Origin: Flavobacterium aestivum
Lineage (GTDB): Bacteria; Bacteroidota; Bacteroidia; Flavobacteriales; Flavobacteriaceae
Reading direction: 5' to 3'
NCBI RefSeq assembly: GCF_026870175.2
Contig: NZ_CP113977.2
Span: 930,001 to 994,000 of the forward strand
Length of the DNA: 64,000 bases
In this document: positions 11,693-34,760 of the stretch, one piece after another
Position numbering within the stretch: the first letter of the stretch is position 1
Layout: every line of letters starts with the position of its first letter
Position numbers and translations under genes: made by a program
Notes under the pieces: model-generated
What the model saw: the letters and a program-made list of their open reading frames with translations, nothing else
Told to the model about the DNA's origin: nothing
Database searches by the model: none

Positions 11693-13012
11693 TTAATTTC
11701 CAAATGTTTCTGTAGTAGGAATCAAACTTGGCGCAATGAAAAGCTTTTCTTCTTTGTTGTATTCTAATTCAATTCCTTTCAGAATATGTTGAGAATCGAT
11801 TACAGTTGTGTTCTCATCAAGTGTTTGTAGACAAGCAAAAGCGATTGCCGAAACTATCTGCGCACCGTTGAGGTCGTAATTTTGGGCAACTATTTCAAGA
11901 ATGTTATGATCTTTGAGTGTTGTTTTCTTAGGCATAGAATTCTCCCATAGTTTTAAACGTTCCTCGGCTGTGGGTTTGTTAAAATGAATAATAGAATTGA
12001 ATCTCCTTAAAAAGGCATCATCGATATTATTTTTAAAATTGGAGGTTAGTATCACCAATCCATTAAAATTTTCCACTCTTTGCAATAAATAGCTTACTTC
12101 CTGGTTGGCATACTTATCATTAGACGATTTGGTTTGTGTTCGTTTCCCAAAAAGGGCATCAGCTTCATCAAAAAGGAGAATCCAATTTTTATTCTCGGCT
12201 TGAACGAATATTTTCTCTAGATTTTTTTCGGTTTCACCAATGTATTTAGAAACTACCTGAGACAAATTAATACGGTAGACTTCTTTAGAAAATTCTTTGC
12301 CAAGTAAAGTGGCAGTAAGCGTTTTTCCAGTACCGGATGGTCCATAAAATAGACACCGATAACCAGGCGCTATTTGTTTTGCCATACCCCAATCATGGCG
12401 CAATTGTTCGTGGTGTTTCAACCAAAGTTTAATTTGATTAATATGGGTATGCGTACTTTCGTTTACTACCAAATCTTCCCATTCCATTTTTGTAGTTACT
12501 TCTTGGGCTGGGAAATTAGGTCCAAATTTTGGTTTTAACTTTTCACCAAAAAACAAGAGATGAACCATTTCTGGTTGTAAAATAAGGCGTCCACTCATTA
12601 AAGGTTCTCCTTCTTTGACATCTTCTAGCGTTAGGATTTGATCTTTAAAGAACCAATGATTAGGCGAAAATAATTGCTGTATTTCCAGCCGATTATTAAT
12701 ATCATTTTTGGCCAAAATATATTGTATCGTTTCTCCGGTAGGAAGCATTCCCCTGTGATTGTCCAATCGGATTCCTCCCAATTCCGGAATATCTCCACCC
12801 TCAGGATATACTTCTTTTATGATTTCATCAAAAAAATTAGGCAAGATATTAGGGACAAGCACCAAAAGCAAAATAACCGCCTCGTCATGGGTAGTTTCTC
12901 TTTTTAGTACTTCAGAAAATGAGTTTTGAAAATTATAGGTTTCCTGATCAGTCTCGTTTTCTGTTGGACTAAGCGATTGAATGAGGAATGATTTTAGGGT
13001 TTGAAATGGCAT
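11693..13012 (-). CDS. eCIS AAA+ ATPase (Afp15-like)
   Basis: 439 residues. The C-terminal AAA+ domain has Walker A GPSGTGKT (224-231), Walker B ILLFDEAD (278-285), sensor [10 protein letters not shown] (322-331) and arginine-finger residues at R336/R337. The N-terminal 200 residues are a family-specific helical region. Afp15-type ATPases are encoded at the end of eCIS operons and are needed for assembly or loading of the particle in the cytoplasm. This is the last gene of the 16-gene operon, 28 bp after the large cargo gene, and its position supports the assignment over FtsH- or ClpV-type roles: there is no metalloprotease domain, and ClpV would be twice as long. Confidence 0.9.
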
Positions 13013-13040
13013 AGATTAGTATTGTATTTTTCTATTATTT

Positions 13041-16000
13041 TTAAAATTGAGAAATCCCAGTATAGCTAGGGTCTTTTGCTTGAACTTGTGCTAATAGATT
13101 TTCTTTTTCACAACCAATCTGGTCAACATAATTATTTAAATTTGTCTTATTTGCTTTAGAAAAGTGATCAAATATTTTGAATGCATATTTTAATTGAATT
13201 CCATTTTGAATAAGTTCAGTATATGATTTTCCATTCAAAACATAGATTTTTTCCGGTTTTGATGCTTCATAATTGTCATCAATATTTATTTTCAAAGATT
13301 TATTGGTATATAGTTCTTTATTTTCATCACTTATTTTTAATGACAAACTAGCTTTCAAACTTGTTGGAATATGAACTTCAGCATTTTTAATTTCTTTTAC
13401 TTCACTAGAGTCATTAGTATTAATTTTTGGAATTGTTCTACCATATATAAATTTCATATTAAAGTTTATAGACGCTCCAGACTGAACCGCTTTTTTTGCT
13501 TCGTTTTCTACTTGAGGTTCCATTTCGCCTGTATTAAATGATCCAGGAATTGGAGCCATGTTATTCCAAGTGCCAGGTCCGAAAATATTATCGTTTAATA
13601 AATGACCTCTTATGTAATAAGTTCCCCCTCCTTTTTTTCTTTTCCTTAAAACTTCCCATAAACTATTTGTAGCTCCAGGAGCAGAACCAGTTACTTTGTC
13701 TTTTCTTCCTTTTTTAGAAAGGTGTTTTACTTCAACACTTTCTCCAATGCTAACACCTCCACGATTAACGGTTTTATGATTTACATCTCCTTCTTCTAAA
13801 ACGCCAAAAAATGAACTTGTCACTTTACTTAACTTTTCTAATTGAAATTCAATTATTTTTTTTCTTTTTAATTCTTCGTCTTTTCTTTTTGGGTCACCCT
13901 CAGGATAGGTGTATTTACTGCCTTTAAGTTCATCAATTTTGTTAGCTATTTCAATAGCAAAAGATTTATCTTTATTTGAATCTGGTACTACTTTTTCAAG
14001 AAAATTTTTATAACTTTTTTTATCACTAGCAACCATTAATATTGGTTTGTCTTCTTTTCCTTCAAAAAATAAGGTGTGATTATTTCCATCATTTCCTTTA
14101 AACTCTTTTCTTAACCCTAACCAAGAAAATAGTTTTTTTACTCCTGCTTTTCCCAAATTCAGCAATCCTTTTACTGCTTTTCCTGCCATTTCAAGGACCC
14201 AATCAATTGCTTTATTTATCGGGGCTTGAATCTTATCTAATAGAGCTTGAACTTTTTTGCTCAAATCGCCAAGTCCCAATAATCCGGCTAAAAAGCCAAT
14301 GGCTATAGGAACCATTTTGGCCAGTGAGTTTTCTACAAATGTTGCGGCCTGAGTTATTTTGCCCGCTACAATTAGAGCGGTACTGTCGACAATACTGTTG
14401 ATTAAATCTAATATTCTTTTAGCATTATTTATAAACCAGCTAATTACATCATAGATAAGTTTACAGGCTTTTATAAAAGCACCAACGGGATTAAATAAAC
14501 TAATAACCCAAGTAATTCCCGCTTTGATGACGGTGTCGATAAGCATGGTTTGTATGGCATCTACGACCATCACTTTTAGGTTACCAACTTTTTCTTTAAT
14601 GTAATTCCATAATCCGCCTAGTCCATCTTTTCTAATGATCTGGAAGATTTCGAAACCCGTTTCTAGAGCTGCAACTATGGTTGCGCCATACATTTTGGTA
14701 GCTCTGGATTTGATATTCTCCCAAGTGAGTCCAAATACTGACATCACAAATTCAAAAATACCGGTTAAGTCCCATTGTTTTGGAAATTTTATCGATGGAG
14801 GCATATTACCCATTAACCATTCAAAAAATCCTTTTTTGAGATGTTCTAATGCATTTTTACCGAAATTTTTAAATCCTAGAACAATAGCATCCAAAAGATT
14901 GGATAGAAAACCAATTGGGTCAAGAATTATTTTCCCTATAGTGTCGGCCACCTTTGCCAGTACCGTAAACAAAAGGTTTTTCATTTCTATAATCGCTTGG
15001 ATTACTCCCACGACAGCATCATAGGCTTTCTCTAACCAACTTTTGTTTTCTTCTTTTATTTTTTCGAAGGTTTCTTCCAGTTTTGCTACTGCTTCATTGA
15101 ATTTCGTGGTAATGTTTTGTTTCAATCCATCGTTTGCTTCACTAATTTTAGTTTCAAGTTCCGTGAATTTGTTTAATGCATTATCAAAAATATCTCCAGC
15201 AATTCTTTTGGTATCATCGTCCTGATTTTTCTTATAATCTTGTGTTGCTTTCCGACCATTTTCAACTTCTGTTGTAGCTTTTGTCAATTCGGTTTCTACA
15301 AGTATCCCTATTTTTTTTACAATAGGCCTTAGATAGTCAATAAATTTATCCTGTTCTTCTCTGAATACTTTCTCTACATCGCTTGGGATACCGGCAATCC
15401 AATTACCAATAGATTCCAGTATACCAACATCGGTTCTTTCACGAACGTTATCTTCAAAAGTTTTGTTGGCTTCTTCTAGAGCCTTATCAAAAGTTTTGTT
15501 TACTTCCTTATCCAGATTGGTCAGGATAGTATCTACATTGAACTGGGTGTCTTTGTATATTTTGTTGAGGTCATTAGCGACCTTTGTTCGTATTTTTTCT
15601 TCTTCTAGTTTCTTGGACTCTTTGTCTTTATCAACCTCTTTTAATTGTTTATCCCTATTGGTATGCATTTTTGCCAATCCGCCTACAATGAGTGATTGTG
15701 TTAGGTTTTTTGAGGCATTTGCAGTCGGTTTTGCTTGTTTTAGATACTGGTTGTGCGTCTCTTTGGCATTGAGCTGGCTTTCTTTTTTTTCGGTTAATGA
15801 ATTCTGAAAATCAGGCTCATTTCCATTCTCCAATTGTGTTTCCGAAACTTGATTATTAGCCATTTCATTATCGATTTTCTGGGATTCGGCAGATAAATCG
15901 TTGTCTTTTTTAGTCTTGAGTGGCGGTGCAATTCCAGCGTTTTGGATCACTGGAGGCTGGCCTATGTTTTCTTTTGGCAGTAATTCCGGCTTACTGAATT

Positions 16001-34038: not shown

Positions 34039-34719
34039 TTATTCTAATTGTATTGATTTGGACTCCAATTCTCCAGTTTGATCACTTATGTCATTATTCC
34101 ATAATTGAACTTTTGCTTTTTTGATTACATCTTGAGTTGGTAAGTCATCTTCTTTTTGTACACGTATCATACGCATGGTGTATAAAACAGAAGGCATATA
34201 TCTGCTGCCTAAATAAGACCACATTTGGTTGAGTTGTTCCGTTTTTAGACTCACCAGATCTAAAATAAGTTTGTTCATTAACTTGGCCTGATTCTCGGAA
34301 ATTTCGGTTTGTTCAAAAAAGTCAGTGTCATTTTCACCATAATAGAACACATTGTTTTGCTGTAAACATTGGATGATGTATTCCAGTTTATCAAGACCTT
34401 CACTGTATTTGCTTTGGTCTTTATTGTAAGAAGTGAATAATAGGGATATGACCAAATTTTGAGCCGGTTTTTTATACTTTTCTATAGAATTTCCGCTTCC
34501 GGAATATTCTTTATAGAGACTCATGTTTTTTAAGGTTTTATCCTCTTCAATATTTACAATAGAGAGGATCATTGATGATTTTTCTTGTACAAAATCATCC
34601 CCATCATTTAAAGTAGCCACATTTGTCAATTCTATATTGATTACAACTCCAACATTAAGCGAAGTAATTTTAGAAGTAATTTTCTTAGATAACTTGTCAA
34701 GTATTTTGGCTAAAGTCAT
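34039..34719 (-). CDS. eCIS cap/tail terminator (Pvc16/Afp16-like, DUF4255)
   Basis: 226 residues. The segment ISLLFTSYNKDQSKYSEGLD followed by LEYIIQCLQQNNVF and the late LGSRYMPSVLYTMRMIRVQK match the DUF4255/Pvc16 family. Its members cap the distal end of the tube and sheath and fix particle length. It is the first gene of the operon here; in the antifeeding prophage the homologue is last. It lies 44 bp before the sheath gene. A promoter box at 34753-34760 and a palindrome just upstream indicate that transcription of the whole cluster begins here. Confidence 0.88.
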   Translation of the reverse strand: MTLAKILDKLSKKITSKITSLNVGVVINIELTNVATLNDGDDFVQEKSSMILSIVNIEEDKTLKNMSLYKEYSGSGNSIEKYKKPAQNLVISLLFTSYNKDQSKYSEGLDKLEYIIQCLQQNNVFYYGENDTDFFEQTEISENQAKLMNKLILDLVSLKTEQLNQMWSYLGSRYMPSVLYTMRMIRVQKEDDLPTQDVIKKAKVQLWNNDISDQTGELESKSIQLE

Positions 34720-34752
34720 GTTGTTGATTGGGGGTCTTTTAGGTTAGGCAGC

Positions 34753-34760
34753 CAAACTTA
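34753..34760 (-). promoter_or_regulatory. Predicted -7 box of the eCIS operon
   Basis: The minus strand reads TAAGTTTG, an exact TAnnTTTG match 33 bp before the cap gene start. A TTTTTG element ends 16 bp upstream (34777-34782) and would be the -33 box, slightly closer than usual. No other promoter-like match lies between here and ileS on this strand. Confidence 0.5.

Follow-up and report, generated by a model that had tools for sequence, protein, structure and literature searches.

A cluster of 16 genes lies between recO and ileS in Flavobacterium aestivum, and it raises the question of what kind of machine it encodes, what the machine delivers and how variable the site is among relatives. 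The cluster occupies the minus strand of a stretch of 64,000 nucleotides (contig NZ_CP113977.2, positions 930,001 to 994,000), here called the window, in whose numbering the positions are given. In our study, the cluster was read as a complete extracellular contractile injection system (eCIS) of the AlgoCIS type that delivers one large nuclease cargo, and the probability of this reading was put at about 0.7. The machine itself is a known one, a further intact system that is probably of the AlgoCIS type, whereas the cargo is a new variant with a shared, still unnamed carrier trunk. Judged from sequence, the cluster probably serves to inject a nuclease toxin into other cells.

The eCIS core set was found in one cluster, namely tube, sheath, gp25, baseplate J, spike, PAAR, a Pvc16_N cap and an AAA+ ATPase. 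An earlier note on this DNA had claimed an eCIS and had proposed profile searches as a check. Pfam assigned most of the cluster genes to families over the cut-offs, and the presence of Pvc16_N, CIS_tube, CIS_TMP and DUF5908 together with the far stronger matches to AlgoCIS upheld that claim against a pyocin, a prophage or a type VI secretion system (T6SS). Profile or PDB sequence matches were obtained for 15 of the 16 genes, that of the cargo being just below the cut-off, whereas fibre 2 was characterized by its model and fold. AlgoCIS was the best solved match for the sheath (7adz), the J protein (7aeb), the cap (7adz, 9wt1), the plug (Alg6) and fibre 1 (Alg19, 9wt0), whereas for wedge protein and spike the chains of the Anabaena thylakoid contractile injection system (tCIS) or of SalCis scored somewhat above it. 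The AlgoCIS-like clade Ib is a candidate placement. The sheath scored 400 bits against AlgoCIS and 36 against pyocin. The spike scored 203 bits against the AlgoCIS chain, 247 against 9rce_F and at most 44 against the VgrG entries of T6SS, which ranked lower. No capsid, terminase or T6SS membrane-complex gene was present among the 16 assigned genes, and the flanks are recO and ileS.

The earlier note had also called the structural roles complete. The core roles were recovered with Pfam and PDB, whereas PDB searches with 10 of the 16 cluster proteins did not turn up Alg16B, the cap adaptor of AlgoCIS, which is weak evidence. Missing from the note's list of structural roles were the 1179-residue cargo, the plug and the second fibre, and the LysM adaptor named there is the CIS_tube protein, for which LysM is a putative label. 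The cap, sheath, plug, spike, Alg11, Alg12 and the shoulder-neck part of Alg19 of the Algoriphagus machipongonensis AlgoCIS match by sequence (PMC8894135, PMC13314943). AlgoCIS differs in having two DUF4157 cargos, Cgo1 and Cgo2, against one cargo without DUF4157 here. Its Alg19 has 1443 residues whereas fibre 1 has 827, and an extra slender fibre is present here. CIS_TMP-type systems are common in Flavobacterium, as CIS_TMP was found in 56 of 299 genomes (one genome per species, the window's own counted), and the genus is listed among those with several eCIS operons per genome (PMC8213781).

The cargo was found to contain a lysine-rich disordered N-terminus (net charge +14 over residues 1–60), a coiled coil, a hydrophobic trunk (about 500–820), a nuclease module (about 826–1080) and a tail, in this order. 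Hydropathy indicated four hydrophobic stretches within residues 523–771. The DNA/RNA non-specific endonuclease family PF13930 matched residues 981–1046 with 25.9 bits (cut-off 27), and the same family was above the cut-off in the cargo of F. aquariorum. His993, Asn1007, Asn1016 and Glu1025 were invariant across 13 aligned cargos. Aided by the motif described in PMC11126660, we read them as putative catalytic-type residues of EndA-like nucleases. PHROG tape-measure families (PHROG 167, 4197) matched at residues 346–535 (E 6.6e-7) and 519–808 (E 8.4e-5), and the cargo had no sequence match in PDB and no family in NCBIfam. DUF4157 (eCIS core), which many though not all eCIS effectors carry, was without a match in the whole genome of the window by profile search. 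When eight relatives were added, matches were found in genomes G024, G112 and G259 and none in the window's genome, G094, G030, G167, G185 and G166. The distance from the cargo gene to the ATPase gene was 20–36 bp in the window, strain HJJ, G094, G030, G167 and G259 and 3 bp in F. amniphilum.

By alignment, the relatives of the cargo keep the trunk and swap the C-terminal module at about residue 820. In six pairs, namely P0011 with the cargos of G094, G030, G167 and G259, and P0012 (HJJ) with those of G094 and G167, the identity was 74–100% in four blocks up to residue 818 and 28–32% in three blocks from residue 826. Compared with the window cargo, P0011 and P0012 were 40–65% identical up to residue 520, 92% at 521–818 and 88–91% after 826. 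P0013 was 92–97% identical to the window cargo up to residue 1080 and 63% beyond, and the F. amniphilum cargo (G185) was 59–70% identical to it in the nuclease module and tail and 37% in the trunk. The cargo has the layout of a polymorphic toxin, i.e., a constant N-terminal part followed by an exchangeable C-terminal module.

The trunk of the window cargo matched no Pfam family over the cut-off. A search with residues 500–820 (E <= 1e-3) found 1188 proteins, 120 of which were listed and their Pfam domains tallied by eye. Among these 120, DUF4157 was carried by 47, the same nuclease family by 31 and other toxin families by 7 (PF15604, PF15649, PF14410 twice, PF14412 and PF15541 twice); PF01442 stood in the precomputed Pfam column of 4. 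Matches of the relatives' trunks to Apolipoprotein, IL32 and Phage_holin_3_6 were scattered and below the cut-off, and some relatives contained Ntox15, Tox-REase-7, AHH or Ntox4 at the same end. The sources span several phyla, with Nitrospira, Chitinophagaceae, Dyadobacter and Candidatus Acidoferrum among the matches listed. Genome contigs yielded carriers in Solimonas, Arthrospira, Chryseobacterium and Aquimarina, and plasmids in Streptomyces, Paraburkholderia and Aureibacter among 20 listed of 35 cargo-matching records. Deinococcus, Sinorhizobium and others were also counted among the cargo-matching plasmids, where the matched part may differ from the trunk.

In a sample of 385 Bacteroidota genomes (own included), sequence searches found the trunk limited to genomes with the eCIS cap gene. 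The trunk was present in 38 and the Pvc16_N cap gene in 76 genomes, and all 38 trunk genomes contained the cap gene (hypergeometric P 1e-31, kinship uncorrected and with a single eCIS marker). Both were on one contig, 19.5–38.2 kb apart, in 33 of the 38 genomes and on separate contigs in the other five. Custom profiles were also run on 20 stretches that lie downstream of CIS_TMP in Flavobacterium genomes other than the window's, and they detected the trunk in 12 of the stretches and DUF4157 in 17; these profiles were partly built from the stretches they were run on, and several stretches cut genes short. We tentatively propose, at less than even odds, that the hydrophobic trunk of roughly 300 residues may serve contractile injection systems in general as a translocation module derived from tape measures, replacing or joining DUF4157 and bringing exchangeable toxin ends into target cells, across phyla (Bacteroidota, Streptomyces, Proteobacteria, Cyanobacteria and others). 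If so, it would mark a large set of unrecognized effectors, orphan plasmid ones included.

Trunk proteins were observed on the Streptomyces plasmids L092 and L106, one of them annotated as a DddA-like deaminase toxin, and these are possible orphan cargos served in trans. Plasmid pAT6 of Aureibacter tunicatorum (L093) contained a trunk-matching protein annotated as DNA/RNA non-specific endonuclease, and two DUF2586 genes on the same plasmid. DUF2586 we take to be sheath-like, and pAT6 is possibly a plasmid-borne contractile device. At L067:426-4625, a 1169-residue gene downstream of CIS_TMP, with no match to the trunk or DUF4157, was followed by an Imm11 immunity-like gene, a neighbour that hints at bacterial targets for this sister system.

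Two fibres were found in the cluster. Fibre 1 was Alg19/crown-like across its first 511 residues. Fibre 2, the start of which was corrected to 18920, contained a conserved anchor of about 40 residues, followed by a helix/coiled coil of 100 residues and a conserved C-terminal head domain. The coiled coil varied in repeat number, and P0023 contained one unit more in the alignment. Fibre 2 had no sequence match in PDB, and its PHROG matches, weak and at odds with one another, were set aside. Its model reached a pLDDT of 83.5 and a pTM of 0.49. In a Foldseek search, only 12 chains were found at E <= 0.001, all of them the fibre head of snake adenovirus 1 (TM-score by target 0.49–0.56), and at E 0.0014–0.06 nearly all were other adenovirus fibres and receptor-binding proteins of lactococcal phages. 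In its model, the head resembles adenovirus fibre heads. By profile, the anchor was found beside CIS_TMP in G233, G185, G061, G166, G277, G149, G094, G167, G030 and G259, and weakly in G024. The fibre 2 profile matched 30 genomes. In 17 of them the matches were weak (E 7e-5 to 1e-3), lay apart from CIS_TMP and were set aside as probably due to chance, whereas that of G024, also weak, was retained since it adjoins CIS_TMP. The distal parts of several anchor-bearing relatives were without similarity to fibre 2 of the window, whereas the fibre beside CIS_TMP in G112 matched it by the distal part. The layout is like that of eBAP1/2-type fibres, compared by description, in which a helical baseplate anchor of about 50 residues is followed by variable distal domains, with five anchor classes (PMC12923769). 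A Flavobacterium contractile injection system with Pvc13-like and Alg19-like fibres, mentioned in connection with fish skin mucus and ant dumps, also contains two fibre types (PMC12210884, set beside the window by description only).

The sequence shows the parts list, the order of the modules and their exchange; how the system would be loaded, released and fired, and at what target, we infer. The plug, spike and baseplate would nucleate the tube and sheath, and the CIS_TMP protein would set the length. The AAA+ ATPase may assist loading of the cargo via the lysine-rich disordered N-terminus, and particles would exit upon lysis of the producer. The target would be bound by fibre 1, with its Alg19-like shoulder and neck, and by the slender fibre 2 with its virus-like head; contraction of the sheath would then expel the cargo. 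The coiled coil and the hydrophobic, phage tape-measure-like trunk would embed themselves in the membrane of the target cell and deliver the C-terminal nuclease to its interior, and DNA and/or RNA may be cut there.

Several results weigh against this account. The nuclease match of the window cargo is below the Pfam cut-off. A PHROG endolysin family overlaps the tape-measure matches at residues 598–828 (E 1.8e-5), and no match to phages was found by tblastn; for these two reasons the tape-measure link of the cargo was judged remote, and a bias toward helix or coiled coil may contribute to it. The AlphaFold model of the cargo was poor, with a mean pLDDT of 45.5 and better values mainly at the coiled coil and in some C-terminal parts, which is too low to confirm the folds of trunk and nuclease. 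No immunity gene was found beside the cargo gene, which the ATPase gene adjoins instead, and the TM-scores of the fibre 2 head are modest. On the two Streptomyces plasmids and the Aureibacter plasmid, no eCIS gene was named within 12–15 kb of the trunk proteins, and in view of these copies the link between the trunk and an eCIS nearby is not a strict one.

Among the alternatives, a cell-anchored contractile system that the producer would fire from within when it touches another cell, in the mode of T6SS-iv, the gut BIS or tCIS, survives best and was considered unlikely. For sheath, wedge protein and fibre 1, the similarity to Anabaena tCIS (All3325, All3315, All3314) roughly equals that to AlgoCIS, the wedge protein scoring higher with tCIS, free and anchored systems are intermixed in the clade (PMC8894135), and the cluster is without a lysis gene, as would suit an anchored machine. 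The gut BIS, as described in PMC12210884, are without Cis6 or typical fibres and have homologues of Aasi_0556, whereas the window has a plug and the receptor-type fibre 2. All 16 genes have roles and no anchor candidate is left among them, Aasi_0556 itself not having been searched for.

Less probable again is a cytoplasmic self-directed device, the nuclease of which would hit the producer or its siblings, with lysis and DNA release, as proposed for the Streptomyces system with Tme. The Tme-like layout of the cargo (PMC11126660) and the lack of an adjoining immunity gene would fit it, whereas two fibre genes of the target-binding type are kept and fibre 2 is diversified, which an internal device would not need. 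A structural role of the cargo as a second tape measure, with a vestigial nuclease-like end and no toxin function, is quite improbable. The PHROG tape-measure-like matches and the nuclease score below threshold point this way, whereas a dedicated CIS_TMP protein is present, some trunk relatives have one of the four toxin domains named above at the same end, and all 13 aligned cargos share the His and Asn residues of catalytic type. Sheath, spike and gp25 are distantly similar to R-type pyocins, prophage tails and T6SS alike; that such a cluster was mistaken for an eCIS can be dismissed, provided that the profile assignments are right, in view of the four eCIS families, the sheath and spike scores and the lack of capsid, terminase and T6SS membrane-complex genes.

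For the eCIS with a nuclease cargo, Tme and Sle1 of Streptomyces are the closest cargo precedents. Tme of Streptomyces davawensis is a tape-measure-related effector with an EndA-like nuclease, in which a coiled coil and a hydrophobic tape-measure-like part precede the nuclease as in the window cargo; it differs in having DUF4157 and at least 2247 residues, the trunks being compared by description only (PMC11126660). Sle1 of Streptomyces lividans is likewise a tape-measure-like effector without DUF4157 and pairs with the DUF4157 protein Sle2, whereas the window's genome is without a DUF4157 match (PMC13277306). Pne1 of the metamorphosis-associated contractile structures is similar, by description, as an eCIS effector termed a non-specific DNA/RNA nuclease (PMC11126660), and differs in that it may lie outside the tube lumen (PMC6748791). 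Polymorphic toxins with DUF4157 have been known since 2012 (PMC3482391), and DUF4157 is used as a feature in present toxin screens (PMC11297309, PMC8213781). In the open-licence literature searched, no paper was found that treats the trunk of Bacteroidota cargos lacking DUF4157 as a separate module open to exchange. The trunk offers a marker for effectors of this kind. Its limits are set by module exchange, it is linked to eCIS genomes and it is joined to several types of toxin, which makes it a defined candidate for the step in which a fired eCIS cargo passes the membrane of its target.

Free release had been deduced from the absence of lysis genes, and this argument was not borne out. No lysis gene was found among the 16 genes, which says little on the mode of release, as eCIS are described as set free on cell lysis (PMC8894135) and relatives have a CHAP-like gene. 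This gene encodes 272–273 residues and adjoins the ATPase gene, on the recO side, in G094, G030, G167, G259 and G112. In the G094 copy, PG_binding was over the Pfam cut-off and CHAP just under it, and the other four were 83–92% identical to this copy. Similar genes were found beside the ATPase in G217 (84%) and G174 (80% identical to the G094 copy), the ATPases of which were 51% and 41% (partial) identical to that of the window. Because of the 80–92% identity despite such divergent ATPases, the gene seems to move or to be strongly constrained. It was absent beside the ATPase in the window and in HJJ, so that an absence unique to the window was ruled out. Four CHAP genes are present elsewhere in the window's genome, three of which were 29–35% similar to the relatives' gene over 130–141 residues (one 36-residue piece 50%), whereas the fourth had no match to it.

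The cluster had been proposed to be an accessory insertion between recO and ileS, and this idea is supported, since the nearest relatives have an empty site and others a filled one. Of the 299 genomes, 124 were listed with both genes, a set skewed to close relatives. G014, G035, G099 and G143 were left out as recO and ileS are on different contigs, and 119 of the remaining 120 contained both genes within 60 kb. The gap between the genes was below 500 bp in 58, 500–2000 bp in 18, 2–10 kb in 37 and above 10 kb in 6 genomes, and all of these last six carry CIS_TMP. In the other 33 CIS_TMP carriers among the 119 the gap was below 10 kb, which is too short for the cluster, and the eCIS is therefore located elsewhere. 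An eCIS was found at recO-ileS, on inspection of the DNA, in G094, G030, G167, G259 and G112, which together with HJJ and the window makes seven cases. The DNA immediately before ileS was similar in empty and filled sites, and no integrase was present among the genes assigned in the recO-ileS interval of the window (att sites were not searched for).

As the recO tree was poorly resolved, the ileS tree (13 genomes) was used instead. In this tree, the window grouped with G056 and G287, both with an empty site (support 100/99), the site-empty G151 grouped with three filled genomes (80/97), and a single clade of all filled genomes was rejected (approximately unbiased test, p 6.9e-26). HJJ was placed outside a nine-genome group containing G094 in the ileS tree (90/97), whereas it fell inside the G094 group in the ATPase tree (99/99). 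G112 contained a divergent cluster at the same site, with a cap 42% and a J protein 46% identical to those of the window. Because filled and empty genomes intermix on the trees and G112 has this divergent cluster, the site is one that gains, loses or exchanges eCIS clusters; one gene tree does not separate several gains from several losses. An intact AlgoCIS-type cluster has close relatives with the same site empty. In G112, the Alg12-like gene was split into two open reading frames (ORFs) (L041:12711-15736) and one DUF4157 stretch contained an internal stop (G112:C1:4337949-4338176), both being signs of decay.

The cluster of the window was found intact, as had been claimed for the minus-strand operon. 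All 16 ORFs contained an ATG and a stop codon with zero internal stops, by which decay was ruled out. From cap to ATPase, the 15 intergenic spacings were 44, 44, 5, 11, −4, 6, 2, 3, 4, 2, 69, 16, 8, 10 and 28 bp; 10 of these are 2–16 bp and one further is a 4-base ATGA overlap, in keeping with the close packing noted before. The most likely start of PAAR is 28461, where the alignment of relatives begins. The window lies inside one 4.58-Mb contig with a single CIS_TMP match, and a second eCIS in this genome was ruled out. The features are given in Table 1.

Table 1. Genes of the cluster, its borders and the PG_binding/CHAP-like genes of relatives.
Feature	Position	Strand	Evidence
Tube cap, Pvc16_N / Alg16A-like, 226 aa	34039..34719	-	PF14065 E 6.6e-25; AlgoCIS cap 7adz E 2.5e-13
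Contractile sheath, Alg2-like, 651 aa	32039..33994	-	Pfam; AlgoCIS sheath 7adz E 1.8e-118
Inner tube protein 1 (gp19), 146 aa	31554..31994	-	PF06841 E 3.6e-43
Inner tube protein 2 (gp19), tube initiator candidate, 152 aa	31090..31548	-	PF06841 E 5e-35
Plug protein, DUF5908, Alg6-like, 57 aa	30905..31078	-	PF19265 E 2.4e-17; 7aef Alg6 (AlgoCIS inner protein) E 1.9e-5
CIS_tube protein, Afp7/Alg7 position, 256 aa	30138..30908	-	PF19266 E 3.1e-41
VgrG-like spike, Alg8-like, Phage_base_V, 555 aa	28464..30131	-	PF04717 E 3.3e-22; 7aef chain E 6.9e-59; 9rce, 7b5h chains stronger
PAAR spike tip, 96 aa	28171..28461	-	PF05488 E 6.3e-22; start from relatives
gp25-like sheath initiator, 137 aa	27754..28167	-	PF04965 E 3e-22
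Baseplate J protein, Alg11-like, 1065 aa	24552..27749	-	PF04865 E 2.5e-5; 7aeb E 3.8e-90
Baseplate wedge protein, Alg12-like, 1019 aa	21490..24549	-	7b5h All3315 E 1.7e-117; 7aeb Alg12 E 6.3e-107
Fibre 1, Alg19/tCIS-crown-like at residues 5-511, 827 aa	18937..21420	-	9wt0 E 4.7e-50; 7b5h All3314 E 3.7e-42
Fibre 2: N-terminal anchor, helix, beta head, 269 aa	18111..18920	-	Alignment, model, Foldseek; recurrence of the anchor next to CIS_TMP
CIS_TMP family tape-measure protein, 503 aa	16591..18102	-	PF19268 E 2.4e-95
Cargo, 1179 aa	13041..16580	-	PF13930 E 1.3e-5; trunk relatives; module exchange; PHROG tape-measure matches
AAA+ ATPase, Afp15/Pvc15 role inferred, 439 aa	11693..13012	-	PF00004 E 4e-28
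recO, left border	10970..11683	+	Pfam RecO_N, RecO_C
ileS, right border	35008..38469	+	Pfam; flank comparison
PG_binding/CHAP-like genes	L034:17091-17909, L035:775-1593, L038:13249-14067, L039:824-1642, L041:825-1646, L054:6068-6889, L059:6821-7642		

In the leader upstream of the cap gene (about 34790–34825, minus strand), two 12-base arms flank a 4-base loop in an inverted repeat, which is a possible attenuator or terminator. Farther along the window, two tRNA-Asn genes were found in tandem at 61478–61664 on the minus strand.

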